The notes beneath the pieces were generated by a model. That model made no database searches, was not told where the DNA came from, and saw only the letters and a program-made list of their open reading frames with translations. From assembly GCF_034258515.1 (NCBI RefSeq), contig NZ_CP139438.1, forward strand, positions 682,001 through 746,000: 64,000 nt of DNA, written 5' to 3'. The translations under genes and the position numbers were made by a program. Within the stretch, counting starts at the first letter, position 1, and every line of letters begins with the position of its first letter. Of the stretch, positions 26,192 to 43,943 are shown one piece after another. The stretch comes from Pseudarthrobacter oxydans (GTDB lineage: Bacteria; Actinomycetota; Actinomycetes; Actinomycetales; Micrococcaceae).

Positions 26192-27244
26192 TCAAGCCCG
26201 CGCGGGCCCCGTGGAGGCCCGCACCGTAAGGTGCGTGGGCATCACGGCAAGCTGCCGGCTCGAGCGGCCTGGAACAGGATTCAGCTGGGAAAGCAGCATG
26301 GATACAGCCACCCGGCCGGCCTGCTCGATTGGGCTGGAAATGGTGGTCAGCGGGGGGTTGCAGAAATCTGCGCCGAAGATGTCATCCGAGCCGACGATGC
26401 TGATGTCCTCCGGTACGCGGATTCCGCGCTCGCGAAGCCGTTGGAGCATTCCGATGGCAAGAAGGTCATTGAACACGATGCACGCCGTGGCGCCGGTGCG
26501 CACGGCCGCGTCTGCCGCGGCTGCGCCCGAGGTTGTTTTGGGCGTGTAGGGGCCAATGCGGTGGGTTTCCATTCCGCGTTTGGATGATTCCTCCTCGAAG
26601 ACCTTCCACCGTGCCCGGTTGGACCAGGATGTTGGCGGGCCGCTGACGTAGCAGACGCGGTGGTGGCCCAGGGACGCCAGGTGCTCCAGGGCCTGGATGA
26701 TCGCGGAGGGCGTGTCGATGACAACCGTTGGAGCGCTGGTGGACGCCCGGTTGATTGTCACCAGCGGCTGGGTCTCGGAGACCTCGGCCAGTTGCGCATC
26801 AGTCAAACGGGAGGCTGCAAGGATGAACCCGTCAGCAGACCGCCGCATTTTGTGGAGCGCTTCAAGCTCCATTTCATTGGACTCCTCGGTATCTACCAGC
26901 AACTGCGTATACCCCGCAGCCTTGAGCTGGTGCTGGGTGCCCCGGATGATGTCGAAGTAGAACGGGTTGGTAATGTCCGGCACCAGGACGGCGACGGCGT
27001 TGGTGCGCCCTGAACTGAGTCCCTGTGCCTGTGAGCTGGGCACGTAGTTCAGCTGAGCGGCCGCTGCTTCGATGCGTTCCCTGGTGTGGCGGTTGACCCG
27101 GTCCGGCTTGGAGAGGGCCCGCGAAACCGTTGATGTGGCCACCCCCGCGAGTTGGGCGACGTCCCGGATTGTTGGGAGTTTTTCCGCGCCCGCGCGGCCC
27201 TCCGGCGGCCCCTCCGTGCGAGCTCCCGGCGTTGTTGCAGTCAT
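26192..27244 (-). CDS. LacI-family transcriptional repressor
   Basis: A 350-residue LacI/GalR regulator. The helix-turn-helix and hinge are classical (TIRDVAQLAGVATSTVSRAL ... YVPSSQAQGLSSGRT), followed by the periplasmic-binding-protein-like sensor core (VAVLVPDITNPFYFDIIRG, IVGSDDIFGADFCNPPLTTI). The ATG at 27244 is preceded by AAAGGA; further upstream codons lack domain sense. It is divergent from the sugar-uptake operon starting at 27446, and a LacI-type palindrome overlaps that operon's -35, so it is the likely local repressor. The inducer is probably an intermediate of the uronate/glycoside pathway. Confidence 0.93.
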   Translation of the reverse strand: MTATTPGARTEGPPEGRAGAEKLPTIRDVAQLAGVATSTVSRALSKPDRVNRHTRERIEAAAAQLNYVPSSQAQGLSSGRTNAVAVLVPDITNPFYFDIIRGTQHQLKAAGYTQLLVDTEESNEMELEALHKMRRSADGFILAASRLTDAQLAEVSETQPLVTINRASTSAPTVVIDTPSAIIQALEHLASLGHHRVCYVSGPPTSWSNRARWKVFEEESSKRGMETHRIGPYTPKTTSGAAAADAAVRTGATACIVFNDLLAIGMLQRLRERGIRVPEDISIVGSDDIFGADFCNPPLTTISSPIEQAGRVAVSMLLSQLNPVPGRSSRQLAVMPTHLTVRASTGPARA

Positions 27245-27334
27245 TGGCCCAATCCTTTCGTGCCGAGAAGGCGCCGGTCCTTCATCCGCGGTGGAGTGGC
27301 CGTACCTCAATGGAAACATCTTTTGGCAACTTTT

Positions 27335-27372
27335 GGCAACCGCTTGCCGCATGTGTTGCCGCTCCCTAGACT
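27335..27372 (+). promoter_or_regulatory. Promoter and LacI-type operator of the sugar/uronate operon
   Basis: The palindrome GGCAACCGCTTGCC (27335-27348), centred on CG as usual for LacI proteins, overlaps a -35 TTGCCG (27344-27349). Exactly 17 bp later is TAGACT (27367-27372), a good -10. Just upstream TTTTGGCAAC is directly repeated (27321-27340), giving an additional operator half-site. Transcription would begin near 27379, leaving a leader of about 67 nt. Confidence 0.75.
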
Positions 27373-27445
27373 GGGTTTCGAATCGCCTGCAGTGATGTGC
27401 GCCACTTGACGTTGTGGCCATGTGGGTGTCCAAGAGGAGAAAACA

Positions 27446-28804
27446 ATGAGGTTTAAATCGTCTTCCGGGCTCGCGGCTATCGTTACGGCTGCGGCATTGG
27501 CATTGACCGGCTGCGGCGGCGGCTCCGGCACTACTGATTCGTCCACCAGCGCGGACGGAAAGGTGGACGGAACGGGCAAGACCCTCAACGTCCTCGTCGG
27601 TGTCTTGAGCCAATACCCGGAACAGCAGAAGCAGTGGCAGAGCGACATCGCGGCAAAATTCAAGGCTGAAACCGGCGCCGACGTGAAGTTCGAGACCTTT
27701 GCCTCGGCCAACGACGAACTGACCCGCATCCAGACCTCAGTGGTATCGGGGCAGGGCCCGGACATCTACGGACTGGGCACCACCTTCACGCCGACTGCCT
27801 TCGCCACCAAGGCATTTGTCACCCTGTCCGACGACGACTGGAAGAAGGTGGGAGGCAAGGAACGGTTCAACAAGGCTGCCCTGGGGATCTCCGGGCCGGA
27901 CGAGGAGCACCAGGCCGGCATTCCGTTCGTCAGCCGCCCCTTCGTGATGGCGTACAACAAGGAACTGCTGGCCGCCGCCGGAATTGAAAAGCCGGCCACT
28001 TCGTGGGATGAGCTTGCGGAGCAGGCGAAGAAGATGACCAAGGACGGCACCTACGGCCTGGCCACCGGCTACAAGGACAATTACGACCCCTGGAAGTTCA
28101 TCTGGGCGATGTCCGTCCAGGCCGGCAACCCGATCGTGGACGGCAACAAGCTCAAGCTCGACGACCCCACCGTCAAGAAGGCCTACGAAACCTACTTCGG
28201 CTGGCTGACAGAGGACAAGATCGTTGACCCGGCTTCCGTGGGTTGGAGCAACAGCAACGCAGTCGCGGCCTTTGCCAGCGGCAAGGCCGGTTACCTGATG
28301 ATGACCACCTCAAGCTCCCTTCCCACCCTTGAGAAGTCGGCCGTTGCGGGCAAGTACGAGTACGCACTGATGCCCACAACGCCTCCGGGCGAGTCCAGCT
28401 CCAAGAACGAGGACGCAGCGAGCATCCTGTCCGGCGACAACCTCGTGGTAGCGGACTACTCGAAGCAGAAGGACCTGGCCTTCGCGTACATCAAACTCAT
28501 CACCTCAAAAGAGGAACAGCTGAACTACCAGAAGATCTTCGGCGACCTGCCGGCCAACGCCGAGGCCCTGGAGGAGCTGGGCGGAAATGCGAAGCTCAAG
28601 CCCATCACCGACGCAGCCGCGAAGTCCAAGGCGACGCCGTTCACCGGAGCCTGGGGCGACATCCAGCTGGGCCTGCTGAACGTCACGGTCCAGTCCGTCC
28701 CTGACCTTGCCGCCGGCAAGGTGGACAGTTCTGCCCTTGAAGCACGGATCAAGGACTCCCAGAGCAAGGGCCAGGCCTCCCTGGACCGGGCCTCCAAAGG
28801 ATAA
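27446..28804 (+). CDS. ABC transporter sugar-binding lipoprotein (family 1)
   Basis: A 452-residue extracellular solute-binding protein. The signal peptide ends with LTGC, the lipidated cysteine being residue 23, followed by a Gly/Ser linker. The rest matches MalE/UgpB-type binding proteins (KTLNVLVGVLSQYPEQQKQW, GPDIYGLGTTFTPTAF, AYNKELLAAAGIEKPATSWDEL, LKLITSKEEQ-like end). It would deliver a mono- or oligosaccharide to the two permeases that follow. AGAGGAGA precedes the ATG. First gene of the nine-gene operon under the LacI operator. Confidence 0.93.
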   Translation: MRFKSSSGLAAIVTAAALALTGCGGGSGTTDSSTSADGKVDGTGKTLNVLVGVLSQYPEQQKQWQSDIAAKFKAETGADVKFETFASANDELTRIQTSVVSGQGPDIYGLGTTFTPTAFATKAFVTLSDDDWKKVGGKERFNKAALGISGPDEEHQAGIPFVSRPFVMAYNKELLAAAGIEKPATSWDELAEQAKKMTKDGTYGLATGYKDNYDPWKFIWAMSVQAGNPIVDGNKLKLDDPTVKKAYETYFGWLTEDKIVDPASVGWSNSNAVAAFASGKAGYLMMTTSSSLPTLEKSAVAGKYEYALMPTTPPGESSSKNEDAASILSGDNLVVADYSKQKDLAFAYIKLITSKEEQLNYQKIFGDLPANAEALEELGGNAKLKPITDAAAKSKATPFTGAWGDIQLGLLNVTVQSVPDLAAGKVDSSALEARIKDSQSKGQASLDRASKG

Positions 28805-28810
28805 ATTGTG

Positions 28811-29824
28811 ATGTCAACTGACGCATCCAACGAAGTCCGGCTTGCGGCGGAGTCCGCCGCAAGCCGGGCGGCCCGCTCAGCCGCTGACACCGCCGGCACA
28901 GAGCCGGGCGGGCAGAAGAGCCCGCGCCGCAAAGGCCTCAGCGAACGAAACCGCCCACTGTGGATGCTGATCCCGGGCGGGGTACTGATGATCATCATCA
29001 TCGTCGTGCCGCTGTTGCTGGGCATCTTCATGTCCACCCTCAACCTGGACCAGTACACACTCCGCAAGTGGATCAGTTCGCCCTTCATCGGCGTCGAAAA
29101 CTTCGTCGAAGCACTGACGTCCTCACCCCTCCTCCACGCCACCTGGCTGAGCGTCAGCTACTCGCTGCTGGCAATGGTCGTGACCCTTCCGCTGGGCATA
29201 GCTGCCGCCGTCGCCACACAGAACGCGTTCAAGGGGCGGGCCGTGATCCGGTCCATCTTCCTGATCCCCTACGTGCTTCCGTCGTTCGTGGTGGCGACCG
29301 TCTGGCGCACCATGTTCCAGCCGGACGGCATCGTGGACAAGGCCTTGGGGACTGTCGGCATCGAGGCCGGCCTGTGGCTGAACGGGCCGCAGACCTTCTG
29401 GACGCTGGTCCTGGTCCAGATTTGGGCCTCCTGGCCCTTCATCTACCTGCTCGCACTCTCCGGGCTGCAGTCCGTGGACCATGAGGTCCATGAGGCCTCA
29501 GCCCTGGACGGCGCACTGTGGTGGAACAAACTGCGCTACGTCATTTTCCCCTACCTCAAGGGGCCGCTCTCGCTCGCTTTCCTGATCGGCATGCTGCACC
29601 ACATCAACAACTTCACGCTTCCCTATGTCCTCTTTGGAGTTCCGGCCCCGGCCGACGTGGAAGTGCTCCCGATCCTTACGTACGTCACCAGCTTCCAAAG
29701 CTTCCGTTTCGGGCTGAGCGCTGCCATGGCTTTCGTTTCCCTGGTCCTGATCGCCATTCCGCTGTTTGTCTACCTGCGCGCCGTCAAGCTCGACGACGCC
29801 GAGTCACCTGGAGCCAAGAAATGA
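28811..29824 (+). CDS. ABC sugar transporter permease, MalF/UgpA type
   Basis: A 337-residue inner-membrane permease with six main membrane segments after a charged 50-residue cytoplasmic N-terminus. The EAA loop that docks the ATPase is visible (HEASALDGALWWNKLRYVIFP). It starts 6 bp after the binding-protein gene; the GTG directly upstream of the ATG is an alternative start. Its stop overlaps the next ATG as ATGA. No ATPase gene lies in the operon, so a shared MsmK/UgpC-type ATPase encoded elsewhere is expected. Confidence 0.93.
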   Translation: MSTDASNEVRLAAESAASRAARSAADTAGTEPGGQKSPRRKGLSERNRPLWMLIPGGVLMIIIIVVPLLLGIFMSTLNLDQYTLRKWISSPFIGVENFVEALTSSPLLHATWLSVSYSLLAMVVTLPLGIAAAVATQNAFKGRAVIRSIFLIPYVLPSFVVATVWRTMFQPDGIVDKALGTVGIEAGLWLNGPQTFWTLVLVQIWASWPFIYLLALSGLQSVDHEVHEASALDGALWWNKLRYVIFPYLKGPLSLAFLIGMLHHINNFTLPYVLFGVPAPADVEVLPILTYVTSFQSFRFGLSAAMAFVSLVLIAIPLFVYLRAVKLDDAESPGAKK

Positions 29825-30744
29825 GCATCTCCACTGCCACCCGGCGGAGTCAGGCCACCGCGGACATTCCACGTCCGGGATCGAAGAAACAGCACGAAGT
29901 CCTGCGGCTGCTCCCGGGGCCTTTGCTCACCATCATTCTCGTGTTCCTCGGTGCCCTCGTCCTGATCCCCGTTTTCTACATCTTCCTTGCGTCCGTTAAC
30001 TCGGACATCGGCGTGGCCAACGGAGAGTTCTGGCCGTCAAGCTTCACCCTGGAGAACTACTCGAAGATCTGGACCAGCGTGGGACTGGCTACCGGACTTG
30101 CCAACAGCGTCCTCGTGGCAGGCGCAACAGCCGTTGTTTCGGCAGCGTTGTCCGTCTCAACCGCGTTCGTCCTGGTCCGCTACAGCTTCCGGGGCCGCCT
30201 CACCATCCTGCGCGGCCTCCTTGCACTGCAGTCTGTGCCGGGAACCCTGATGGTGCTGCCCGTGTTCGTCCTGTTCTCTTCGGCCGCCACCTACTTGGGA
30301 ATCCAGGTCATCGGAACCCAGTGGGGACTCTTTGTCACCTACCTGACGTTCGCCATGCCGTTCTCCACCTGGGTCATGGTGACCTACCTGCGCGGACTTC
30401 CCCGGGAACTTGAGGAAGCAGCCAGGATCGACGGCGCCAGCAACGTGGGTGTCCTGTTCAGGATCATCCTGCCGCTGAGCTGGCCCGGCATCGTGGTTTC
30501 CGGCATCTTCGCCTTCCTGCTCGGCTGGAACGACGTCCTGTTCGCTTCCGTCATGACCCGGCCCGAAAGCCAGACCGCGGCCGTGGCACTGCAGATCTTC
30601 GGTGCGTCCCAGGAAGGCGGCGCCATCCCGTTCTACGGCCAGATGATGGCTGCGGCCCTGGTATGTGCCGCCCCCGTGGTCATTCTTTACCTGATTTTCC
30701 AGCGTTATCTAGTGGGCGGACTTACCGCCGGAGGAGTTAAGTAA
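29821..30744 (+). CDS. ABC sugar transporter permease, MalG/UgpE type
   Basis: A 307-residue permease with six membrane segments and a clear EAA loop (LEEAARIDGASNVGVLFRII). It overlaps the preceding permease gene by 4 bp and is followed 2 bp later by the first isomerase gene. With the preceding permease it forms the channel of a carbohydrate uptake-1 family importer. Confidence 0.93.
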   Translation: MSISTATRRSQATADIPRPGSKKQHEVLRLLPGPLLTIILVFLGALVLIPVFYIFLASVNSDIGVANGEFWPSSFTLENYSKIWTSVGLATGLANSVLVAGATAVVSAALSVSTAFVLVRYSFRGRLTILRGLLALQSVPGTLMVLPVFVLFSSAATYLGIQVIGTQWGLFVTYLTFAMPFSTWVMVTYLRGLPRELEEAARIDGASNVGVLFRIILPLSWPGIVVSGIFAFLLGWNDVLFASVMTRPESQTAAVALQIFGASQEGGAIPFYGQMMAAALVCAAPVVILYLIFQRYLVGGLTAGGVK

Positions 30745-30746
30745 CC

Positions 30747-31595
30747 ATGGTTCCAGCCACCCAGGTCTCGTGGGCCCTGTCCGGATTCGGCGACGAAATC
30801 GACGACGACCCCGCGGTGCAGATCGCGGTGCTGCAGGCACTCGGTGCCAGTTACATCGAAGTGCGCAGCGCGTGGGGCACCAACATCGTGGACCTGTCCG
30901 ATGACCAGCTCGCGGAACTCGCGGGGCTGCTCAAGGAAAAGGGCATGCAGGTTTCCGCGATTGCCTCGCCGATCGGCAAGGTGGACGTCAGCCTCCCCGT
31001 TGAACACGAAGTGGAGCGGCTGCGGCGGGCAGCCAATGCTGCCAAAGTCCTGGGTGCCAAGTACATCCGGATCTTCTCCTTCTACTACGGCGAATCCGTT
31101 CCGGTGGACAGCATCCGTGACGCGGTCATCGAGCGGATGAGGGCGCTCGCCGCTGTTGCCGAGGAAGAGGGCGTGGTCCTGCTGCACGAAAATGAAAAAG
31201 ACATCTTCGGGGACGTTCCGGACCGCGTGCTGGACATCATCGAAAGCGTGAATTCACCGGCGCTGAAAGTGGCGTGGGACGCAGCCAACTTCGTGCAGGT
31301 GGGCGTGAAGCCCTTTGATGAGGCCTATGCGAAGCTGCGCCCGCACCTGGAATACCTCCAGGTCAAGGACGCCCTGTTCTCCAACGGACATGTGGTCCCC
31401 GCAGGGGAAGGCGACGGCGACCTGCTGCGCACCGTCGAAGCGCTTAAGGCTGACGGTTTCACCGGCTTCGCCTCCCTGGAGCCGCATCTTGCCGGAGCCC
31501 ACGGCCTTGGCGGATTCTCCGGCCCCACAGCATTCGGTATTGCTGCCCGGGCCTTTGCAAAAGTCACAGCGGAAGCAGGAGTGCAGACAGTATGA
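30747..31595 (+). CDS. Sugar isomerase/epimerase, AP-endonuclease-2 TIM barrel (first copy)
   Basis: A 282-residue TIM-barrel protein of the xylose isomerase-like family. Metal ligands can be followed as Glu in LHENEKD, Asp in VAWDAANF, His in RPHLEYLQVKD and Glu in ASLEPHL, the usual E-D-H-E set. Members include epimerases, isomerases and lyases acting on keto-sugars, including enzymes that cleave 3-keto-glycosides. Which reaction applies is not evident. It overlaps the oxidoreductase gene by 4 bp, so both probably act in succession. Confidence 0.82.
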   Translation: MVPATQVSWALSGFGDEIDDDPAVQIAVLQALGASYIEVRSAWGTNIVDLSDDQLAELAGLLKEKGMQVSAIASPIGKVDVSLPVEHEVERLRRAANAAKVLGAKYIRIFSFYYGESVPVDSIRDAVIERMRALAAVAEEEGVVLLHENEKDIFGDVPDRVLDIIESVNSPALKVAWDAANFVQVGVKPFDEAYAKLRPHLEYLQVKDALFSNGHVVPAGEGDGDLLRTVEALKADGFTGFASLEPHLAGAHGLGGFSGPTAFGIAARAFAKVTAEAGVQTV

Positions 31596-32762: not shown

Positions 32763-33668
32763 ATGAAATTTTCAGTATTTACAGCCTCCACGCCGGACTG
32801 GACCCCCGAGGAAGCCGTGAGCCACCTTTCGGGCCAGGGCTGGGACGGCATCGAGTGGCGGATCACAGACCAGGCGGAGGCGCCCGAGCCAGGTTTCTGG
32901 GCCGGCAACAAAGCGACGATCCCGCTCACCGGACTCGAAGACAACCTTGGGCGGGTGGCAACCATTACCCGCGACGCCGGGCTGGAGTTCTCCGGAATCG
33001 GCGGCTATGCGCGCTGTGACAACCACGACGACGTCGAGCGCATGCTGGCAGCTACGGCCGCCTTGGGCGCGGGCCAGGTCCGCGTCACCACGCTTCCGCT
33101 GGGAACGGCGGCGTGGGGTAACGAAGGACCGAGCGGGATTCCTTATCCTGCCCTGTTTGAGGCAGCCCGCCATGACTTCGAATGGGTGGCCGAACGGGCA
33201 GCCCACCATGGCGTCAAGGCACTGGTGGAACTGCACCACCGCACCATTACCGCATCCGCGTCCTCGGCGCGGCGCCTGCTGGAGGGCCTCGACCCCCGGC
33301 ACGTGGGGGTCATCCACGACCTCGGCAACCTGCTGATCGAAGGCCAGGAAGACTACCTTCCGGCCTTCGAACTGCTGGGCGAATACCTGGCACACATCCA
33401 TGTCAAGAACGCCGTCTGGGTCCGCCAGGACGCAACGGACGAATCAGGTGCCGCCGTGTTCAGCAACGAATGGGCACCGCTGCAGTCCGGACAGGGAAGC
33501 GTCCTCGAATACTTCAAGGCGCTCGCGGCCCATGGCTATGACGGGTGGGTCACGGTGGAAGACTTCTCCACGGAGTTGCCCCTTGCCGAACGTACTGCCG
33601 GCAATCTCGACTACCTGCGGCGTACGGCGGCCCTCGCCGGGCTCACCGCAGGGGCCGGGGCGCGTTGA
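32763..33668 (+). CDS. Sugar isomerase/epimerase, TIM barrel (second copy)
   Basis: A 301-residue relative of the first isomerase, but clearly divergent from it. Probable metal ligands are Glu in LVELHHRT, Asp in GVIHDLGN, His in AHIHVKNA and Glu in WVTVEDFS. The ATG at 32763 follows the oxidoreductase stop by 4 bp. Two members of this family flanking a Gfo/Idh/MocA enzyme suggests a sugar is oxidised and then epimerised or cleaved. Confidence 0.82.
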   Translation: MKFSVFTASTPDWTPEEAVSHLSGQGWDGIEWRITDQAEAPEPGFWAGNKATIPLTGLEDNLGRVATITRDAGLEFSGIGGYARCDNHDDVERMLAATAALGAGQVRVTTLPLGTAAWGNEGPSGIPYPALFEAARHDFEWVAERAAHHGVKALVELHHRTITASASSARRLLEGLDPRHVGVIHDLGNLLIEGQEDYLPAFELLGEYLAHIHVKNAVWVRQDATDESGAAVFSNEWAPLQSGQGSVLEYFKALAAHGYDGWVTVEDFSTELPLAERTAGNLDYLRRTAALAGLTAGAGAR

Positions 33669-33672
33669 CGCC

Positions 33673-35073
33673 ATGGCACATTCAATGGCAGCCCACCCCG
33701 ACCGGCTCCTGCCCGCAGACCCCGGCGTTCGGGAGATTGCCCGTTCGCTCTACAGCCTCGTGGCCGGCCTCCCGATCATCTCCCCGCACGGACACGTTGA
33801 TGCCGCCGTCATCGAACAGAACCTGCCCTTTCCGGATCCCGCCGCGCTCCTGGTCACCCCGGACCACTATGTGACCCGCTTGATCCATGCCGGCGGCGTC
33901 CCAATGGACCAGCTGGGCCTTGGCGGCTCCGCTGCAGGCTCCCGGCAGGTCTGGCGCAACTTTTGTGCCGCGTGGCCGCAATTTGAGGGCACGGCCTCGG
34001 GGTACTGGATCCGGCAGGAATTCGAGCACGTGTTCGGTTTGCATGAGGAGCCCACCGCCGAAAACGCCGACAGGATCTACGACGCGATCTCGGCCAAGCT
34101 TGCCGAACCAGGCTTCAGGCCCCGGCAGCTGTTCAAGGAATTCAACATCGAGGTGCTCGCCACCACCGACGATCCGCTGGACACACTGGACAGTCACGCG
34201 GCCCTGGCCAAGGACCCGGCCTTCGCCAGCCGTGTCCTGCCCACCTTCAGGCCGGACCAGTACCTCAACATTGCCCATCCGGCCTGGCAGGACAATGTGG
34301 AGCGGCTCATCGCTGCCGGTGGAGGCGGTTCGGGGTACGCCGGCTACATCAGCGCGCTGGAATCACGGCGGCGCCACTTCGTCGAAAACGGGGCGGTATC
34401 CGCCGACCACGGCGTCCGTACGCCGGCCACCCTTAAGCTGGACCGCTCCGAAGCGGAACGGCTGTTCGAACGGGCGCGTGCGGGGAACGCGCGTCCGGAG
34501 GACCGCGACGCTTTCGAAGCCCACATGATCTACGAGATGGCACGGATGTCCGTCGAGGACGGGCTGGTCATGACCATCCACCCGGGTTCGTACCGCAACC
34601 ACCACGGGCCTACGTTCGAATCATTTGGCGCGGACACGGGCCACGATATTCCGTTCGCGATCAACTACACCGAGGCCATCCGGCCCCTGCTCCAGGACTT
34701 CGGCACGGCCAAGGACTTCCACCTGGTGCTGTTCACCCTGGACGAGACCGTGTTCTCGCGGGAGCTGGCGCCGCTGGCGGGGTTCTACCCGTCCGTCTAC
34801 ATCGGCGCCCCGTGGTGGTTCCTGGATGCGCCGGATGCGATGCTGCGGTTCCGGTCCGCCGTCACGGAAACTGCCGGTTTCTCGCGCTCCTCGGGATTCA
34901 TCGACGACACAAGGGCTTTCTGCTCCATCCCGGCACGCCACGACACGTCACGCCGGATCGAGTCGGCCTTCCTGGCACGCCTGGTAGCCGAGCACCGCAT
35001 CAGCGAAGAGCGCGCCCGCGAACTGGTCGTGGACATCGTTGACGGTTCGCCGAGGAGGGTCTTCAAGCTGTGA
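33673..35073 (+). CDS. uxaC: Uronate (glucuronate/galacturonate) isomerase
   Basis: A 466-residue UxaC, the amidohydrolase-fold isomerase that converts D-glucuronate to D-fructuronate (or galacturonate to tagaturonate). The N-terminal metal site SPHGHVDA, the TTDDPLDTLDSH segment and MTIHPGSYRNHH are characteristic, and the length is usual for the family. The ATG at 33673 begins 4 bp after the previous stop. This enzyme fixes the operon's purpose as hexuronate catabolism. Its end overlaps the reductase gene by 4 bp. Confidence 0.94.
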   Translation: MAHSMAAHPDRLLPADPGVREIARSLYSLVAGLPIISPHGHVDAAVIEQNLPFPDPAALLVTPDHYVTRLIHAGGVPMDQLGLGGSAAGSRQVWRNFCAAWPQFEGTASGYWIRQEFEHVFGLHEEPTAENADRIYDAISAKLAEPGFRPRQLFKEFNIEVLATTDDPLDTLDSHAALAKDPAFASRVLPTFRPDQYLNIAHPAWQDNVERLIAAGGGGSGYAGYISALESRRRHFVENGAVSADHGVRTPATLKLDRSEAERLFERARAGNARPEDRDAFEAHMIYEMARMSVEDGLVMTIHPGSYRNHHGPTFESFGADTGHDIPFAINYTEAIRPLLQDFGTAKDFHLVLFTLDETVFSRELAPLAGFYPSVYIGAPWWFLDAPDAMLRFRSAVTETAGFSRSSGFIDDTRAFCSIPARHDTSRRIESAFLARLVAEHRISEERARELVVDIVDGSPRRVFKL

Positions 35074-36503
35074 GCATTGAACTGCCACCACAACCAGGGT
35101 CCGCCGCCGGGGACCTTCCGCAGTTGAACCGCCGCCTGCACCAGTTAGCCAAGGCTCCAGTGCGGATTGTCCACCTTGGCCTGGGCGCCTTCCACCGCTC
35201 CCACCAGGCCTGGTACACGCAGCAGGCGTCCGATGCCCCGGACTGGGGCATCGCAGCCTTCACCGGCCGCCGTCCCGATGCTGCTCTGGCCCTCGCTGAG
35301 CAGGACGGCCTGTTCACCCTGGTGGAACGTGCTGACGACGGCGACTCCTACACCGTCGTCGGCAGCATTGTGGAGGCCGTGGACGGCGCCGACGTGCAGC
35401 GCCTGGCGGATCTGGTGGCCGCCCCCGGTACCGCCGTCATCACCCTGACGATCACGGAAGCCGCCTACGGCATCGGTTCCGGCGGCCGGCTGGACCTCAC
35501 CGCGCCTGGCGTAGCTGCCGACCTTGCCGTGCTCTCCTCCGGCAAGGGCCAACCGACGACGCCGCTGGGCCGCCTCGTGTTCGCCCTCGCCGCCCGCCGG
35601 GCTGCTTCTGCGGGACCGCTCGCTGTGGTCTGCTGCGACAATCTCGCCAACAACGGCACCATTGCACACCATGCCGTCACGGGCATGGCCGAGGCCTGGG
35701 ATGCCGACCTGGCCGGATGGATCGATGCCAACGTCAGCTTCGTCAGCACCTCGGTGGACCGGATAACACCGCGCACCACTGACGCCGACATCGCGGCCGT
35801 CCAGGCCGCCTGCGGGTATCGCGACACCTCTCCGGTGGTGGCCGAGCCCTTCGCCAACTGGGTGCTCAGCGGGGACTTTCCCGCCGGGCGTCCGCACTGG
35901 GAAGATGCCGGCGCGGTCTTCGTGGACCACATCGAACCCTATGAGAACCGCAAACTCTGGCTCCTGAACGGGGCCCACTCCCTGCTCGCCTACGCCGGCC
36001 AGCTCCGTGGCCATACCACTGTCGCGGAGGCCTTGGCGGACCCGCGCTGCCTGCAGGCCGTGGAGAGCTTTTGGGACGAGGCGGAAACCAACCTCACGGA
36101 ACAGGAGGGTGACGGGGTCGACCTGCAGATCCCGGCTTACCGCGCGGCCCTGCTGGCGCGGTTCCGCAATGCCCGGATTGCCCACCACCTGGCACAGATC
36201 GCAATGGACGGCAGCACCAAGCTGCGCATGCGTGCCGTCCCCGTTTTGCAGGCGGAGCGTGCCGCGGGACGCCCGGGCGCAGCCGCCGCGCTGATGATCG
36301 CTGCGTGGATGGACTACACGGCCGGCGGCGCGGTCCAGGATCCGCTCGCGGGCGAGGTTGCCGCAGCCAACTCACTCCGGGGCAGGGAGCGGATCCGTGC
36401 CCTCCTGTCCTTGGTGGATCCTGCCCTCGCCGGGGACACCGGCGCAGTGGACCTGGTTGAGGGCCTCTGCGGGACGTTTGAGCCGCGGACTGTCCCGCGG
36501 TAG
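35070..36503 (+). CDS. uxuB: Fructuronate reductase, mannitol dehydrogenase family
   Basis: A 477-residue long-chain dehydrogenase. It has the N-terminal [16 protein letters not shown] block, the [11 protein letters not shown] motif and the active-site lysine region [14 protein letters not shown] of the mannitol dehydrogenase family. Placed directly after uxaC and before a mannonate dehydratase, it most likely reduces fructuronate to mannonate with NADH; mannitol 2-dehydrogenase activity cannot be excluded from sequence. It starts with GTG overlapping the uxaC stop, with GAGGAGGG upstream. Confidence 0.85.
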
Positions 36504-36639: not shown

Positions 36640-37869
36640 GTGAAAATCATTGCTGCCGATGTGTTTGTGACCAGTCCCTCCCGTAACTTCGTGACGCTGC
36701 GGGTCACCACGGAGGATGGTGTGACGGGTATTGGGGATGCGACGTTGAACGGGCGGGAGCTTGCGGTCGCCGCGTATTTGAAGGAGCATGTGGCGCAGTT
36801 GCTGATCGGGAAGGATCCGCACCGGATCGAGGATACGTGGCAGTTCCTGTACCGGTCCGCGTACTGGCGCCGGGGTCCGGTGACGATGGCGGCGATCGCG
36901 GCGGTGGATATGGCGTTGTGGGATATCAAGGGCAAGGTGGCCGGGATGCCGGTGTACCAGTTGCTGGGCGGGGCGTCGCGGAACGGGTTGCGGGCGTACG
37001 GGCACGCGTCGGGCGCGGATTTGCCGTCGTTGTTTGATTCGGTGCGGGAGCATCTGGAGCTGGGGTACAAGTCGATCCGGATCCAGACGGCGGTTCCCGG
37101 GATCAAGGCCGTGTACGGGGTGGCGGCGCAGGCGCAGGCTTCGGGGGAGCGGTATGACTACGAGCCGGCCGGGCGGGGTGCGTTTCCGGTGGAGGAGGAC
37201 TGGGACACCCGTGCGTACCTGCGGCACCTGCCTACGGTGTTTGAGGCGGTGCGGAATGAGTTCGGTCCGGAGATCCCGTTGCTGCATGACGGGCATCACC
37301 GGATGACGCCGATCCAGGCGGCGAAGCTGGGCAAGACGCTGGAGCCGTATGACCTGTTCTGGTTGGAGGACTGCACCCCGGCGGAGAACCAGGAGGGCCT
37401 GCGCCTGGTCCGGCAGCACACCACCACGCCGCTGGCGATCGGGGAGATCTTCAATACCGTGTATGACTTCCAGACCCTGATCAAGGAACAGCTGATTGAT
37501 TACGTCCGGGCTGCGTCCACGCACTTCGGCGGGATCTCCCCGTTGAAGAAGGTGATGGATTTCGCCGCGCAGTACCAGATCAAGTCCGGTTTCCACGGGC
37601 CCACGGACATTTCCCCGGTGGGCTTCGCGGCGCAGCTGCACGTGGGCCTGGCGATCCATAATTACGGGATCCAGGAGTACATGCAGCATTCGGACAAGAC
37701 CAACGAGGTGTTCGAGCAGTCCATGACGTTCGTGGACGGCTACCTCCACCCCGGGGACAAGCCCGGCATCGGCGTCGAGTTCAATGAAGAAGCCGCAGCC
37801 GCCTACCCCTACCAGCAGGCCTACCTGCCCTACAACCGCCTCATCGACGGAACGGTCCACGACTGGTGA
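36640..37869 (+). CDS. manD: D-mannonate dehydratase, enolase superfamily (ManD type)
   Basis: A 409-residue enolase-superfamily dehydratase that would turn D-mannonate into 2-keto-3-deoxy-D-gluconate. The metal ligands are visible in order: Asp in [10 protein letters not shown], Glu in FWLEDCTP and Glu in LAIGEIFN. The region [18 protein letters not shown] is the mobile loop of the ManD subgroup and [10 protein letters not shown] is near the active site. It is not the UxuA-type enzyme. The GTG start has only a weak upstream GGATC. Codon choice over the first two thirds (many TTG, GCG, GAT and CGG) differs from the flanking genes. Its stop overlaps the fusion gene start. Confidence 0.9.
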
Positions 37870-40193
37870 CCACGTACAACCCCGAAACCAAGCTCCGCAT
37901 CATCGTGATGGGGGTGTCCGGCTGCGGCAAGACCACCATTGGCGACCTCGTCGCCCGGGAACTCGGCGTGCCGTTCCTCGACGGCGACTCCCTCCACCCT
38001 GTGGAGAACGTCGCCAAAATGGCGGCCGGCACGCCCCTGACGGATGACGACCGCTGGCCGTGGCTCGCCACGGTGGGCACCGAGCTGGCCAACGCGGGCG
38101 ACGGCGGCATGGTCCTGGCGTGCTCCGCCCTCCGGCGCAGCTACCGCGACGCCATCCGGGCCCAGGCGCCGGATACCGTCTTCCTGCACCTGCACGGGAG
38201 CAAAGAGGTCCTGAGGGCGCGGACTGAAGGGCGCACCGGCCACTTCATGCCGCCGGCCCTCCTCGACTCCCAGCTCGCCACGCTGGAACCGCTCCAGGCT
38301 GACGAAGCGGGCGTCGTCGTCGACATCGCTGCCGGCGTGGACGAGGTGGTGCGGGAGGCACTCGCCGGAATTGCCGTCGTCGCGCGCTCCAAAACTGGTG
38401 GCTCCGGCGGCGCTGCCGGCAGTGCCGGTGCCCCCGGCACCCGGCCGCGGCAGTTCGACGTCGACCTCCAGGCCGCGCCGTTCAACCTCGACGACGACGC
38501 CGTCGCCTGGGTGGAATCCACTCTGGCCGGCATGAGCCTCGAGGAAAAAATCGGCCAGCTGTTCATCAACCACAACAACGACTACTCCCCGAAGTACCTC
38601 GATGGCGTGCTGGAGAACTACCACGTGGGCGGCATGCGGTACCGGCCGGGCCCGTCCGCGGCAGTGCAGGAGCACATCCGGTATGCGCAGTCGAAGACCC
38701 GCATCCCTTTGCTGGTGGCCTCCAACCCGGAAATGGGGGGAGCCGGAAGCTGTGACGACGGCACGTTCGTGTCCACGCACCTGCAGGCCGGCTCCCACCC
38801 GGACAAGGCCATCGCCCGGCAAATGGGACAGGTGGCCGGGGTGGAAACCGCGGCGCTGGGCTGCAACTGGGCGTTCGCGCCGATCGTGGACATCCACTAC
38901 AACTGGCGGAACACGGTGATCTCCACCCGGTCCTTCGGGAATACCCCCGAGATCGTGGTGGAGCGCGCCAAGGAATACTTCGACGGCATCAGCGAGTCCC
39001 CGACGGTGTGCGCCATGAAGCACTTCCCGGGCGACGGCGTGGACGAGCGCGACCAGCACGTCGTCACGTCCTACAACACGTTTGGCTACGAGGAGTGGAA
39101 CCGGACCTACGGGCACGTGTACCGCGAGATGATCGGGCACGGCGTGCAGTCCATCATGGTGGGGCACATCGGCGCCCCGGAGCTGTCCCGGCATTTCCGG
39201 CCGGGCATGGCGGACGCGGACATGCTGCCGGCCACGCTGTCCCCGGAGCTGCTGCAGGACCTGCTCCGCGGTGAGCTGGGGTTCAACGGACTGGTCCTTA
39301 CCGACGCCTCGCAGATGGTGGGCCTCACCCAGGCCATGAAGCGCCGGGACCTGGTGCCGGCCACCATCGCCGCCGGCTGCGACATGTTCCTCTTCTTCCG
39401 CAATCCGGCGGAGGACTTCGGCTACATGCTGGACGGCGTCAAGTCCGGCGTCATCACCGAAAAGCGCCTCCACGACGCGCTGCGCCGGATCCTTGGACTG
39501 AAAGCTTCCATGGGACTGCACCGCAAGCCGGCGGACCAGCTGGTTCCGCCTCCTGCGGCGCTGGCCGTGATCGGCAGCGCGGAACACCGGGCTGTTGCGG
39601 CGGAAATCGCGGACAAGACCGTCACCCTGGTCAAGGACACTGCGCACAACCTGCCCATCACGCCGCAGACGCATCCGCGGATCCGGCTGTACGGGATCTC
39701 CGGCGGGGCGGATTTCACCCGCGCCGATCCGCTGGCCTACCTGGACACCGTCAAGGAAGAGCTGCAGGCCGCCGGCTTCGAGGTGCACTTGTTCAAAACC
39801 GCGGACCAGCGGGAGGCTGCGGGGGAGACCGGTGTTAACTTCATGTCGATCATCTCCGAGGAAGCCACCGGCGACTACGCGGACAAGTACGACGCCGCTT
39901 TTGTGTTCGCGAACGTCAAGGGCTTCGCGCAGGAAGCGGCGATCCGGATCAAGTGGTCCTCGCCGATGGCCGCGGAGATCCCGTGGTACGTCACCGAGGT
40001 TCCCACGGTGTTTGTTTCGCTCAACCAGCCGAACCACCTGATCGATGTGCCGATGGTCAAGACGGCGATCCACGCCCACGCAGGGTCCCGCGAGGCCATC
40101 CGGGCCACCATTGAAAAGATCCAGGGCAAGTCCGCATTCCAGGGCACGTTCAACGACAACGTGTTCTGCGGTTCCTTCGACACCCGGCTCTGA
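37866..40193 (+). CDS. Gluconokinase-GH3 glycoside hydrolase fusion protein
   Basis: A 775-residue two-domain protein. Residues 1 to about 172 are a complete GntK-type gluconokinase: P-loop GVSGCGKT (16-23), DGDSLHP (40-46), [11 protein letters not shown] (57-67), [10 protein letters not shown] and [18 protein letters not shown] Gly/Ala/Ser linker (about 173-193) leads to a GH3 barrel with KHFPGDG (385-391), an Asp-Gln-His triad-like motif (396-398) matching the NagZ acid/base loop, and the predicted nucleophile Asp480 in LTDASQM. No signal peptide, so both activities are cytoplasmic. It is the last gene of the operon, overlapping manD, and ends at a strong terminator. The fusion suggests hydrolysis of an imported glycoside coupled to phosphorylation of a released acid. 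Confidence 0.9.
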
Positions 40194-40206
40194 CCGGCGC
40201 ACTAAA

Positions 40207-40239
40207 AAAGGAAAGCCCCTCCATGAGGGGCTTTCCTTT
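40207..40239. terminator. Bidirectional rho-independent terminator
   Basis: AAAGGAAAGCCCCT pairs perfectly with AGGGGCTTTCCTTT around a CCATG loop. It has A-rich sequence on one side and T-rich on the other, so it can stop both the uronate operon and the convergent gentisate operon, whose last gene ends 21 bp beyond it. Confidence 0.93.
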
Positions 40240-40260
40240 CTTGCTGATAGCAGGACGCGG

Positions 40261-41010
40261 CTAGATCCACTTCGGTGCGGCGGGCGTTCCTTCCGCCGCA
40301 CCCGCGCCGGTGGCCGTGACCCCATGCGACCCCCGGCCGGCGGCCCATTGGACGACGGCGGGCAGCGGCCCCGTGATGATCGTCGGGTCAGCGGCGCCCG
40401 CATCGCCGAACGCCAGGTCCGTACCGTCCACCTTGACAAGGAGCCCGGCATCCGTGCCGCGGGTGTGCCAGGCGCCGGTGATGTCCTTGAGCAGGCGTTC
40501 CAGGACGGGGGCAGGGATATCGCCGAAAGTGGCGCCGTTGTCCAGGTCCACGGCGTGCATCCAGACCTCGCGGGTGCGCATCCACACGGTTTCCTCCGCC
40601 GGGACGATGCGGCCCTGGGCGGTCTTGACCTTGTGGTGCCAGGCGTCCGCGGGCAGGTCGCGCCATTCGACGTTCAGGTGCACGGCTGAGTGGTCGAAGA
40701 GGTGCCGCAGGGCGATCGGGGACAGGGTGGACCCGAAATCGATTTCGTGGTTCCGGGCCTCGGGCGAGGAGTACATGGGGTTTTCCACGCCGGTGGCGGC
40801 CCATTCGATCAGCCGCGCGATGGCGCGGGCGTTGTAGCCCACGTGTGCCACGACATGCCTGCGGGTCCAGCCGGGAAGGAGGGTGCCGCCGTCGAGCTCT
40901 GCGTCGGAAAGCTCGTTGAGCTTGCGGGCGAAGAACGCGGTGCCCCGGCGCGCCTGGAGCAGTGCCTCCAGGAGCGCCGGGTCGGTGGCCTGGTCGTGGC
41001 GGGCAACCAT
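40261..41010 (-). CDS. Maleylpyruvate isomerase, mycothiol-dependent (MDMPI) type
   Basis: A 249-residue DinB-like/MDMPI protein. The N-terminal helical bundle carries LPGWTRRHVVAHVGYNARAIARL, whose histidine is a zinc ligand in the family, and DHSAVHLNVEWRDLP and REVWMHAVDLDNG supply the others. It isomerises maleylpyruvate to fumarylpyruvate with mycothiol, the thiol of actinobacteria. The start overlaps the stop of the hydrolase gene by one base (TGATG arrangement). Third gene of the gentisate operon; the order matches the pathway except that the hydrolase comes first. Confidence 0.9.
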   Translation of the reverse strand: MVARHDQATDPALLEALLQARRGTAFFARKLNELSDAELDGGTLLPGWTRRHVVAHVGYNARAIARLIEWAATGVENPMYSSPEARNHEIDFGSTLSPIALRHLFDHSAVHLNVEWRDLPADAWHHKVKTAQGRIVPAEETVWMRTREVWMHAVDLDNGATFGDIPAPVLERLLKDITGAWHTRGTDAGLLVKVDGTDLAFGDAGAADPTIITGPLPAVVQWAAGRGSHGVTATGAGAAEGTPAAPKWI

Positions 41011-41849
41011 CAGGCTTCCTTGACCACGCGGTTCTTCAGCTGGCCCAGGCCCTCGATGGTGGTCACCAGGACCTGGCCTTCCTGGAGGTAGCGCTTGGGG
41101 TCCTGCGCGTGGCCCACACCGCCGGGGGTGCCGGTGGCGATCACATCGCCCGGGTTCAGCGTGATGATCGTGGAGATGTAGGAGACCAGGAATTCTGGGG
41201 TGAACACCAGGTCCGAGGTGGGGGTGGATTGCTGGACGTCGCCGTCCACGGCGGAGGTCATGAGCGGTCCGGGAGTGAATTCGTCCTTGGTGACCAGGGC
41301 CGGGCCGAACGGGGTGGACTTCTCCCAGGTCTTGCCCTGCAGCCACTGGATGGTGCGGAACTGGTAGTCGCGCATGGAGATGTCGTTCAGGACGGCGTAG
41401 CCGGCGATGTGGTCCGCGGCGTCGGCCTCGCTGATCCGGCGGCCCTGCTTGCCGATGACGACGGCGAGTTCGGCTTCCCAGTCCACGGTGTCCGATTCCT
41501 GCGGCAGGGCGAGGTCGTCGTTGGGGCCGATCAGGGACTCGGCGTACTTGGCGAACAAAGTGGGGTATTCGGGCACTTCCCGGCCCATTTCCTTGATGTG
41601 GTTGCGGTAGTTGTGGCCCACGCAGATGATCTTCCCCGGCGAGGGCACGACGGCGGCGAGGTCCGCGCCGTCGAGGGCGTGCGTTGCGCCGCTGGCCGCC
41701 GCAGCGGTGGTTTCCCAGGCGGGGTCCTGCAGCAGGGCGCCGACGTCGGCGAACCCGGAGATCTCGGTGAGGGTGTCGCCGTCCTGGCGGACCGCCACGG
41801 TGCCCTTGGTTCCTGTGCTGTCAGCAGTGCGGAGGGTGAGGAGTTTCAT
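41010..41849 (-). CDS. Fumarylpyruvate hydrolase (FAH family)
   Basis: A 279-residue fumarylacetoacetate-hydrolase-fold enzyme. The family core is clear: ICVGHNYRNHIKEMG, SDTVDWEAELAVVIGK with the metal-binding glutamates, VLNDISMRDYQ and TGTPGGVG. In this operon it should split fumarylpyruvate into fumarate and pyruvate, the last step of the gentisate route. The start overlaps the gentisate dioxygenase stop by one base (TAATG). Confidence 0.9.
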   Translation of the reverse strand: MKLLTLRTADSTGTKGTVAVRQDGDTLTEISGFADVGALLQDPAWETTAAAASGATHALDGADLAAVVPSPGKIICVGHNYRNHIKEMGREVPEYPTLFAKYAESLIGPNDDLALPQESDTVDWEAELAVVIGKQGRRISEADAADHIAGYAVLNDISMRDYQFRTIQWLQGKTWEKSTPFGPALVTKDEFTPGPLMTSAVDGDVQQSTPTSDLVFTPEFLVSYISTIITLNPGDVIATGTPGGVGHAQDPKRYLQEGQVLVTTIEGLGQLKNRVVKEA

Positions 41850-42979
41850 TACTTGCTGCGTCCTTCGATGTAGGTGCGGTTGAAGTTCAGGCGCTCAAAG
41901 ATGGGGGCGTCGCTGAAGCGGAACAGATCAAATTCACTCTCGGCCTGCAATGACCAGGCGGCCCAGGACGGGACCACGAAGAGGTCGCCCTTGGCCAGCT
42001 GCCGGGATTCGCCGTTGAGGACTACGGAGCCGGTGCCTTCGAAGACCTGCCAGACACTCGAGCCGACCTCGCGGACGGTCTCGGTGGCGGCGCCGGCGCG
42101 GAGGCGGTGGAACTCGGCGCGGATGGTGGGCATGACGTCGCCGCCTGTGGTGGGGTTGGTGTAGCGGACGGCGGCGTGGCCCTGGGACACGGTGGCCGGG
42201 TGGCCCTCGTCTTCCAGCAGCAACTGCTCACGCAGGGCCGCGTCCGTGTACTTCCACCTGTACGCGGCGATGGGGGAGCTGGTGGTGTCCTCCAGGCCCG
42301 AGAGCGGGCGAAGGCCCGGGTGGGCCCAGAGGCGCTCGGACCGGGAGATGTCCGGGGTGGCCTCGTCCGTGACGCGTTCGGTGCCGAACTCGAAGAACCC
42401 GGCGTCGGCGTAATGCACGAACGGGATGTCCAGGCCGTCGATCCAGGCCATCGGCTCGTCGGTGTCGTTGTGGTGGCCGTGGAAATTCCAGCCCGGGGTG
42501 AGCAGGAAGTCGCCGCGGGACATCCGCACCGGGTCCCCGTTCACCACGGTCCACACGCCTTCGCCCTCGACGACGAAGCGGAAAGCGTTCTGCGAGTGGC
42601 GGTGCTCCGGTGCGGTTTCGCGGCCGCCCAGGTACTGGATCGCGGCCCAGAGCGTGGGCGTGGCGTAGGCGGTTCCGCCAAGGCCCGGGTTGGCCAGGGC
42701 AATTGCGCGGCGCTCCCCGCCGCGGCCCACCGGCACCAGGTCACCGGCACGGGCGGCCAACGGGTAGAGGTCGCTCCACCGCCACACGTGCGGCACTGCC
42801 TTGGGGGACGGGACCATCGGCATCAGGTCACCGATCTCCGTCCACAGCGGGATCAGGTTCTCTTTGTCGAAGTCCTTGTAGAGCTGCTCCAGCTGGGCAG
42901 CCTCCTCCGGCGTCGGCTCCGGGACGGTGATCCCCGCGGCCACTGATTCATGGGTCGTGTTCTCGGCGCTGATGGACAC
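41849..42979 (-). CDS. Gentisate 1,2-dioxygenase
   Basis: A 376-residue double-cupin dioxygenase. The iron site of the first cupin is visible as APEHRHSQNAFRF (His126 and His128) and the downstream WNFHGHHND. The second cupin (residues about 280-350) keeps the fold. It opens gentisate between C1 and C2 to give maleylpyruvate. The start is GTG with a strong AAAGGAGG 6 bp upstream. First gene of the operon; a 17-bp palindrome shared with the transporter promoter lies 79 bp upstream. Confidence 0.94.
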   Translation of the reverse strand: MSISAENTTHESVAAGITVPEPTPEEAAQLEQLYKDFDKENLIPLWTEIGDLMPMVPSPKAVPHVWRWSDLYPLAARAGDLVPVGRGGERRAIALANPGLGGTAYATPTLWAAIQYLGGRETAPEHRHSQNAFRFVVEGEGVWTVVNGDPVRMSRGDFLLTPGWNFHGHHNDTDEPMAWIDGLDIPFVHYADAGFFEFGTERVTDEATPDISRSERLWAHPGLRPLSGLEDTTSSPIAAYRWKYTDAALREQLLLEDEGHPATVSQGHAAVRYTNPTTGGDVMPTIRAEFHRLRAGAATETVREVGSSVWQVFEGTGSVVLNGESRQLAKGDLFVVPSWAAWSLQAESEFDLFRFSDAPIFERLNFNRTYIEGRSK

Positions 42980-43057
42980 GTGGGCCTCCTTTGTGGGTCA
43001 GAACAGTTTTTTGGCGTGGCTCGACTCTACGGAAGAAGGTGGTGTGACCCCCAGCAT

Positions 43058-43074
43058 ATTCTGCTCTTCAGAAT
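43058..43074. promoter_or_regulatory. Palindromic operator upstream of the gentisate operon
   Basis: ATTCTGCTCTTCAGAAT is a perfect palindrome of ATTCTG and CAGAAT around 5 bp. A nearly identical site is found at 43887-43903. The two copies share 13 of 17 bases including both arms apart from one end base, and both are followed by TG. They are the likely binding sites of the adjacent IclR regulator. Confidence 0.7.
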
Positions 43075-43097
43075 TGGTGCGCTTTACTCTGGCCCTG

Positions 43098-43931
43098 TCA
43101 GTCCGGCTCTGCCGGGTTTGCCGCGATGTCGATTTCCAGCTGCCTGCAGCATTCGCGCAGGGCCGGTACCAGCCCGGCGTCGAACACCGTGCGGAAACGG
43201 GTGGCGGGTGTGGCAACGCTGAGGGCGCCCACAACCTGCCCGTGCCGGTTGTGCAGCGCCATGCCCAGGGCGCTCACACCGTCCTCAGTGCCCTCAAAGT
43301 TGGCTGCAAAACCGTTGCCGCGGATGGACTCCAGCTCGCGCAGGAATCCCGGATATTCCTCGTCGGGGATGGTGTCCCCGCCAATCTCGGCGTTGTTGCT
43401 GCGGAAGAGCTGGTCCAGCAAACGCGGTTCCAGTTCCGCCAGCATGGCCTTGCCGCCGGACGTCTTGTCAGCAGGCATCACCGTCCCCTGCCGGTCACCT
43501 ACCCGCAGCACGTTGGTCCCCTCCACGGTCGCCAGGAATCGGACTTTGGTGCCAACCCGCACCATGAGGTTCACGGTCTCGTTGAGCCGCGCGGCGAGCA
43601 GTTCCATATGGGGCTGTGCGAGCGAGCGCAGCAGCCTGGTCCAGCTCAGTCCGGCGGGGCCGACGCCCATGGCGGGACCCGGAACATAGCGACGGGTTTC
43701 GTCCTGCACGGCGAAGCCGCGGTAGACCAGCATCGCCAGGAGCCGGTGGGCCGTGGAGGGGGCCACTCCCAGTTCCTCGGCCGCATCCTTCAGCCGGAGG
43801 GCGCCGCCGTCGCGCAGGAGCTGGAGGAGCTGCAGCGCGTTGTCCACCGCCTCGATGGAATAGGTGGGGCGCTTCTGCACGGGCTTTTTCTGCACATCAG
43901 AATTGTATTGTGGTTCATCTTCGGTGGCCAT
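43098..43931 (-). CDS. IclR-family regulator of the gentisate genes
   Basis: A 277-residue IclR regulator: N-terminal winged helix (AVDNALQLLQLLRDGGALRLKD, AEELGVAPSTAHRLLAMLVYRG) and C-terminal effector domain (VNLMVRVGTKVRFLATVEG, SGGKAMLAELEPRLLD, GVSALGMALHNRHGQVVGALSV). It lies between the two arms of the pathway it likely controls, with 3-hydroxybenzoate or gentisate as effector. The ATG at 43931 is only 12 bp from the divergent transporter start and has no ribosome site. In-frame GTG codons at 43895 and 43880 are alternatives that would leave room for the promoter and operator. Confidence 0.9.
   Translation of the reverse strand: MATEDEPQYNSDVQKKPVQKRPTYSIEAVDNALQLLQLLRDGGALRLKDAAEELGVAPSTAHRLLAMLVYRGFAVQDETRRYVPGPAMGVGPAGLSWTRLLRSLAQPHMELLAARLNETVNLMVRVGTKVRFLATVEGTNVLRVGDRQGTVMPADKTSGGKAMLAELEPRLLDQLFRSNNAEIGGDTIPDEEYPGFLRELESIRGNGFAANFEGTEDGVSALGMALHNRHGQVVGALSVATPATRFRTVFDAGLVPALRECCRQLEIDIAANPAEPD
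43887..43903. promoter_or_regulatory. Second copy of the palindromic operator, before the transporter gene
   Basis: TTTCTGCACATCAGAAT repeats the palindrome at 43058 with the same arms and spacing. It is 40 bp before the MFS start codon, where a repressor would cover the promoter. It also lies inside the 5' end of the IclR gene as read from the ATG at 43931, arguing that IclR really starts further in. Confidence 0.7.
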
Positions 43932-43943
43932 GACAGTAGTGGG

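Follow-up and report, generated by a model that had tools for sequence, protein, structure and literature searches.

A 64,000-nucleotide stretch of Pseudarthrobacter oxydans DNA (NZ_CP139438.1, positions 682,001 to 746,000; hereafter the window) contains an open reading frame (ORF) in which a gluconokinase of the GntK type is joined to a glycoside hydrolase family 3 (GH3) enzyme, at the end of an operon for sugar acids. From the gene context we propose, at a probability of about 0.42, a cytoplasmic enzyme with two functions, belonging to a glucuronide/sugar-acid operon, whose GH3 half replaces the β-glucuronidase UidA in cleaving glucuronides. By the retaining mechanism of GH3 enzymes, in which Asp480 would serve as the nucleophile and His398/Asp396 as the acid/base, the GH3 half would take β-linked glucuronosyl residues, or acidic glycosyl residues closely akin to them, off an imported glycoside. 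The released glucuronate would feed UxaC, UxuB and ManD, the same work that UidA would do in sister operons, and the kinase half would convert gluconate entering by the same acidic-sugar route to 6-phosphogluconate. The benefit of fusion would most likely be fixed stoichiometry and joint regulation, not direct channelling. The parts of the fused protein are as follows.

37866..40193 (+): kinase-GH3 fusion ORF; GTG start, 775 amino acids, single frame, no internal stops
37866..38381 (+): GntK/IdnK-type gluconokinase domain, residues 1-172, with the P-loop at residues 16-23
38382..38465 (+): Gly/Ala-rich linker, residues 173-200
38466..40190 (+): GH3 half, BglX-type, barrel and C-terminal domain, residues 201-775
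39018..39059 (+): K385-H398 segment with the putative Asp396/His398 acid-base dyad, from a motif scan
39303..39305 (+): putative catalytic nucleophile Asp480 (TDASQM), aligned with BglX and invariant in a 30-row alignment (A3)

UidB, UidA and GH3 in sister operons

The proposal draws on sister operons of the order lacI-uxaC-uxuB-(uidA)-uidB-manD-gntK-(GH3), recruited by the transporter UidB and not by GH3. All five operon UidBs tested pass the NCBIfam glucuronide-transporter model (567-645 bits; cut-off 528), and the three operon UidAs tested all pass the β-glucuronidase cut-off (872-889 versus 544). An earlier set of 90 operons, recruited mostly by GH3 or gntK, was biased, and the association was recounted from UidB. 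Among 150 genomes of the same genus, 82 have some UidB match, and 58 have one of at least 75% identity, a cut of our own choosing. UidA is absent from 34 of these 58, and every one of the 34 has the GH3; it is present in the other 24, of which 18 have the GH3. Put the other way, the six UidB genomes that lack GH3 all have UidA (Fisher p 0.0033, with no tree correction). GH3 is found in 52 of the 58, versus 45 of the 92 other genomes. Three further genomes, whose operon UidB matches at 58-61%, fit the pattern, two with GH3 and no UidA and one with both, so that over all 61 operon-UidB genomes GH3 accompanies UidB in 36 of 36 without UidA and in 19 of 25 with it. By locus (53, with five of the 58 that end at a contig edge set aside), 36 have GH3 only, 11 have both, six have UidA only and none has neither. 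In another family (L220), a GH3 73% identical to that of the window lies near uidB-uxuB-uxaC-lacI on the opposite strand, in a stretch cut inside uidB.

A number of points weigh against the proposal. The closest characterised relative of the GH3 half, BglX, works on glucosides. The pattern holds for operon-type UidB only, and UidB matches at 53-55% do not follow it. Twenty-four genomes have UidB matches only below 75% (53-61%), of which 12 were read and seven of those tested against the family model. Nine of the 53-55% matches lie outside any uxaC/manD operon, and four that were tested score 462-469 bits against the cut-off of 528, so these copies were set aside as another transporter. On a UidB tree of 52 rows UidA changes seven times and GH3 three times, and a tree-corrected test is not significant, the independent pairs being never opposite but too few (p 0.5-1). 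Eight of the 23 iolE2-bearing operons in the 90-operon set lack GH3, which is thus not needed in operons of that kind. The window's genome (4.44 Mb) gave no match to UidB, and its operon has an ATP-binding cassette (ABC) transporter and Gfo/IolE genes, so that the case for glucuronides comes from relatives; one relative with a 95% identical GH3 (G069) has both the uidB and the ABC/Gfo/IolE-type sets. It speaks for the proposal that no UidA was found in the window's genome, where the only GH2 match is a 1058-amino-acid frame taken for LacZ-type, but the glucuronidase search covered UidA/GH2, and the families GH79, GH1 and GH30 were not searched. Finally, on the other side, separate gntK and GH3 copies exist, so cleavage and phosphorylation need not be consecutive.

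The earlier note on this DNA placed the fusion at the end of a hexuronate operon and proposed that an imported disaccharide or aldobiouronate-like compound is cleaved in the cytoplasm. The gene is indeed last, but the operon is not simply of a free-hexuronate type, because sister operons hold uidA/uidB. Cytoplasmic cleavage of an imported acidic glycoside fits the UidB-type transporter of those operons, whereas the kinase substrate offered with it, 2-keto-3-deoxygluconate (KDG), fares less well, as discussed below.

The fused protein and its GH3 half

A complete GntK domain, a Gly/Ala linker and a GH3 enzyme in one frame, as the earlier note had described, are confirmed by profile matches and the absence of stops. 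The NCBIfam gluconokinase model TIGR01313 matches residues 12-166 at 183.3 bits (cut-off 113.75), the kinase half matches the gluconokinase of PDB 3t61 at E 1.3e-51, and Pfam PF00933 (GH3) matches residues 225-544 at 194.6 bits (cut-off 27). The motifs pointed out before, namely the P-loop, KHFPGDG, the Asp-Gln-His loop (D396-Q-H398) and Asp480, are all present. The P-loop and substrate motifs of GntK are intact in the fused kinase and conserved in both kinase clades, types A and B (from consensus sequences for which 87 rows were grouped by identity as type A and 30 as type B; rows near the threshold may be misgrouped); K385, H386, D396 and H398 are invariant in alignment A3 and kept in BglX. 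No signal peptide is seen by eye, again in agreement with the earlier reading. Pfam and NCBIfam profile searches of the fusion gave no match to a GH2 domain or to the UidA model NF007538, and there was no match to the PfkB domain PF00294 at E 0.001.

The linker differs in length and sequence among the relatives listed. In an AlphaFold model of the fusion built on 30 alignment rows (mean predicted local distance difference test score, pLDDT, 70.7; predicted template modelling score 0.63), linker residues 177-196 fall below a pLDDT of 50, as do the active-site loops, and we judge the model adequate for fold but not for substrate modelling. Seven basic residues (H270, H305, H311, R367, R445, H603 and H738) are particular to the GH3 clade, an observation made without a control and of little weight. 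On the opposite strand an open frame of 873 codons spans the entire fusion (37830-40451, -), and we take it for a by-product of high G+C content.

To which GH3 enzymes is the C-terminal half related? The best match in a PDB sequence search with residues 201-775 is BglX (5VQD, E 4.6e-117), and a fold search with the model likewise ranks 5VQD/5VQE best, with a TM-score of 0.80 of the target. The NagZ-like identity given in the earlier note did not hold up, since BglX is nearest by both sequence and fold and the motif differs: where four NagZ-like controls (L001, L077-L079) have KHFPGHG...DSH, the fusion has KHFPGDGxDxRDQH. The Asp nucleophile and His/Asp dyad (D480, D396, H398) are present but do not tell phosphorylases from NagZ hydrolases, which use a His/Asp dyad too. 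Six of the seven Firmicutes relatives read also share the KHFPGDGxDxRDQH segment, the exception being L268 with KHFPGNGLDFRDAH, and the third GH3 of the window's genome (L003) has a different segment again, KHFPGGG. Two alphaproteobacterial relatives (L264 and L265, about 34%) gave no KHFPG segment in the motif scan, so the signature misses the most distant relatives.

The kinship with BglX raises an alternative to glucuronide cleavage. In the available part of a 2022 review (PMC8950772), two GH3 phosphorylases are counted as characterised, the His/Asp dyad is described as a mark of such phosphorylases, and BglX is said to act on glucosides and N-acetylglucosaminides by phosphorolysis. The GH3 half might be a BglX-like retaining β-glucoside phosphorylase whose substrate is a glucosyl sugar acid, for instance cellobionate; it would yield β-glucose 1-phosphate and gluconate, and the fused kinase would trap the gluconate as 6-phosphogluconate. 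No other reading explains a gluconate kinase as the fusion partner. Moreover, among the Firmicutes loci (those opened, out of 42 plasmid records that gave a match), a β-phosphoglucomutase (β-PGM) gene, pgmB, is in the cluster in three of the five bacillar relatives read (L260, L262 and L269; 37-39% identity). It overlaps the GH3 gene in Carnobacterium and lies one gene further in Melissococcus and Enterococcus raffinosus, and all three pass the β-PGM cut-off; none is annotated in the stretches from E. innesii and Lactiplantibacillus. A GH65-linked domain of the β-PGM family is present elsewhere in the window's genome. Against this, three β-PGM-family queries (E 1e-8) found no such gene around GH3/gntK in any of 109 actinobacterial loci, some of them from the same genomes, and none in the window. 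At other loci gntK stands behind manD without any GH3 (17 distinct kinase sequences), the other genes of the window's operon indicate a uronate and not a glucosyl aldonate, and the dyad is shared with NagZ. On balance we consider a phosphorylase of glucosyl sugar acids unlikely here, although for the GH3 branch as such phosphorolysis is plausible because of the pgmB neighbours in Firmicutes and the dyad. In Melissococcus and Enterococcus raffinosus (L260, L269) the BglX-like gene is followed by an α-L-rhamnosidase-like gene, below its family cut-off, and pgmB, an arrangement that suggests phosphorolysis of rhamnosyl-glucosides.

Glucuronide cleavage can also be put in a fuller form, which is possible but doubtful: that the GH3 half, a descendant of the rare β-glucoside phosphorylase branch, is the first member of GH3 to cleave glucuronides, that in actinobacterial uid/uxu operons it has taken the place of UidA, and that it was fused, perhaps repeatedly, to a sugar-acid kinase. 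Such a GH3 might even phosphorolyse glucuronides to β-glucuronic acid 1-phosphate.

Distribution and origin of the fusion

An assembly or frame error is excluded as the cause of the fusion, because 92 of the 150 genomes of the genus carry a single match that spans both halves, from the kinase to the GH3 end (residue 721 or later), two of them (G071 and G132) with one stop inside. The fusion is thus not an isolated one, a point the earlier note had proposed to check in close relatives. Four more of the 150 (G051, G053, G093 and G147) hold the protein in broken pieces and G139 holds a GH3 fragment; the remaining 53 have no GH3 match among the matches listed, which reach down to about E 3e-50. 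Farther afield, the GH3 is found at E 1e-60 in 30 of 295 genomes of the family, and five of 394 genomes of the class pass E 1e-50, three of the five being about 34% alike and NagZ-like by motif. The best 80 of 468 loci in a contig collection are nearly all from Arthrobacter, Pseudarthrobacter, Paenarthrobacter and their kin, and include four Microbacteriaceae GH3 copies (73% identity) without a kinase. Where kinase and GH3 are fused or adjacent, co-occurrence with manD and uxaC, also raised in the earlier note, is nearly constant. Lone copies of the GH3 break it: L091, L092 and L217-L219 have no manD/uxaC in the stretches read.

Two side observations concern the loci themselves. The fusion or GH3 gene is broken by a frameshift or stop in L090, L089, L191, L032 and L074, so decay or sequencing errors do occur. 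L209 (NZ_JADHDY010000006.1), titled Sporosarcina beigongshangi, looks mislabelled or contaminated, and its counterpart G351:C56 is placed in the window's own family.

How did the fusion arise? In a related genus (g24), manD, gntK and GH3 are three adjacent genes in this order in seven of nine genomes and are fused in the other two. Among 104 distinct GH3 sequences, 66 are fused to a type A kinase and 23 to a type B kinase, eight follow a type A kinase encoded by a gene of its own (L191, among these, resembles a frameshifted fusion) and seven have no adjoining kinase. The GH3 tree, rooted on the four unfused Microbacteriaceae copies and with 42 of its 101 inner branches below 80% support, requires at least five changes between fused and unfused states and five of kinase type. 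Type B kinases share only 57-63% identity with that of the window, against 86-90% for the matching GH3 halves, and it would follow that either there were repeated fusion events or one kinase half replaced another within an existing fusion. On the GH3 tree, three lone GH3 copies from the window's family fall among the fused ones, which suggests that they lost their kinase. In one related genus a further gntK lies behind the GH3 (L064, L066, L068, L071 and L073), so that gluconokinase genes stand on both sides of it.

One might think that such a fusion has no metabolic meaning. The GH3 half would be an ordinary broad β-glycosidase carried along, the neutral product of joining two neighbouring genes that share no pathway step. 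Read-through fusion would be easy given separate adjacent genes in the same order, as in g24, and the two halves also occur apart. Yet the fused state persists over many species, the fusion was kept or re-made while the kinase lineage changed, and the GH3 tracks the operon UidB in genomes without UidA. We find neutral joining rather improbable.

The kinase substrate and the surrounding genes

Which sugar acid does the kinase half phosphorylate? Our best guess is gluconate. Whether or not a GH3 is there too, gntK adjoins manD at 18 of the 30 manD loci examined; these 30, with that of the window among them, were the ones returned out of 108 genomes of the order that gave a match. This tie, and the absence of a KDG kinase from the operon, which was rightly stated in the earlier note and agrees with the genes read, would favour that note's suggestion that the kinase half phosphorylates ManD-made KDG. 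Known KDG kinases have the PfkB fold, however, and the motifs kept in the fused kinase are those of gluconokinases. Elsewhere the window's genome has, in one run, a galactonate dehydratase, a 2-keto-3-deoxy-6-phosphogluconate (KDPG)-type aldolase, a PfkB-type kinase resembling those for KDG or 2-keto-3-deoxygalactonate (KDGal), and a second ManD. Assignment of this kinase is soft because its score, 181.5 bits, lies below the cut-off of 400; the KDPG-aldolase-like gene is also below its cut-off. The second manD (G000:C1:441546-442772; L137 8547-9773) encodes a protein 100% identical to the window's ManD and lies directly behind the KDG/KDGal-type kinase and aldolase, so KDG is probably served by another kinase in this genome. 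In addition, eda, kdgK, manD and a GntK occur together in three of the 30 manD loci, though these GntKs are nearer to canonical GntK (51-55%) than to the fused kinase (46-49%). Phosphorylation of KDG by the kinase half is, on this evidence, highly improbable. The presence of the second manD in a galactonate-type operon looks like a recent duplication or gene conversion.

The window's genome also has a second GntK isozyme (G000:1240253), whose neighbours include a permease resembling GntP and a GntR-like regulator, names that we read from the sequences. On stereochemical reasoning, L-iduronate or L-guluronate could yield gluconate via UxaC/UxuB-like steps. L-iduronate catabolism is described as unclear in the available part of a 2019 review (PMC6353982).

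The rest of the operon reads as follows.

26192..27613 (-): divergent LacI-family regulator, Pfam PF00356; start uncertain
27422..30744 (+): ABC sugar transporter, a binding protein (by Pfam) and two permeases
28808-29824 and 29821-30744 (+): the putative ABC permeases, as read from ORFs
30747..31595 (+): iolE1, xylose-isomerase-like TIM barrel protein, Pfam PF01261
31592..32758 (+): Gfo/Idh/MocA oxidoreductase, by Pfam
32763..33668 (+): iolE2, xylose-isomerase-like TIM barrel protein, Pfam PF01261
33679..35073 (+): uxaC, glucuronate isomerase, PRK02925 561.3 bits (cut-off 387); start uncertain
35070..36503 (+): uxuB-like, fructuronate-reductase-like polyol dehydrogenase, PRK15037 262 bits, below the cut-off of 603
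36640..37869 (+): manD, D-mannonate dehydratase subgroup, NF043051 686.1 bits (cut-off 550)
40207..40239 (+): inverted repeat directly after the fusion, read in the sequence; likely intrinsic terminator and operon end

The GTG start of the fusion and the stop of manD overlap by 4 nucleotides. Gfo/Idh/MocA and IolE-like genes recur beside GH3 or uxaC at other loci (L084, L093, L217-L220), some together with an ABC transporter of peptide type, as judged from ORFs, and may represent a 3-keto-glycoside cleavage route parallel to the GH3. Downstream, positions 40261-46545 hold gentisate-pathway-like genes read from ORFs: a ring-cleavage dioxygenase, fumarylpyruvate-hydrolase and 3-hydroxybenzoate-hydroxylase types, and a major facilitator superfamily transporter.

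We found no report in the open-licence literature of a gluconokinase-GH3 fusion, nor of Arthrobacter with cellobionic acid and gluconate; both enzyme types in the protein are known, and it is their domain order that we did not find described there. The β-glucuronidase families named in the available part of PMC12943147 are GH2, GH154, GH1, GH30 and GH79, with GH3 not among them, and by that account a glucuronide-cleaving GH3, if true, would be new. The conserved fusion, set in an operon of glucuronide type, offers a specific candidate, easy to express, both for a GH3 specificity not seen before and for a coupling of cleavage to phosphorylation in the breakdown of sugar acids. Annotation as NagZ or β-glucosidase would miss this role.

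How does the fusion compare with known systems? The kinase half resembles the GntK/IdnK gluconokinases (TIGR01313; PDB 3t61, 1knq) over a full domain above the cut-off with motifs intact, but those solved are single-domain proteins of 175-202 amino acids, whereas here the domain is the N-terminal half of a fusion. With NagZ-type β-N-acetylglucosaminidases the GH3 half shares the barrel, the Asp-x-His loop and a TDA or TDS nucleophile motif; it differs in the segment described above and in its weaker fold match (4gyj, TM-score 0.63 of the target). BglX/BglP (5VQD, 5VQE) is collinear over the entire GH3 half (201-775) at 38% identity, with a common KHFPGDGxDxRDQH segment, TDA nucleophile motif and C-terminal domain. 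BglX stands alone, however, whereas the present enzyme, known here from sequence, is fused to a kinase in a uronate operon without β-PGM. The likeness to UidA, which is present in part of the sister operons, would be one of presumed role, the intracellular cleavage of glucuronides imported by UidB; UidA is a GH2 enzyme with two catalytic Glu residues, as given in the available part of PMC12943147, and the GH3 half would use Asp and His instead.

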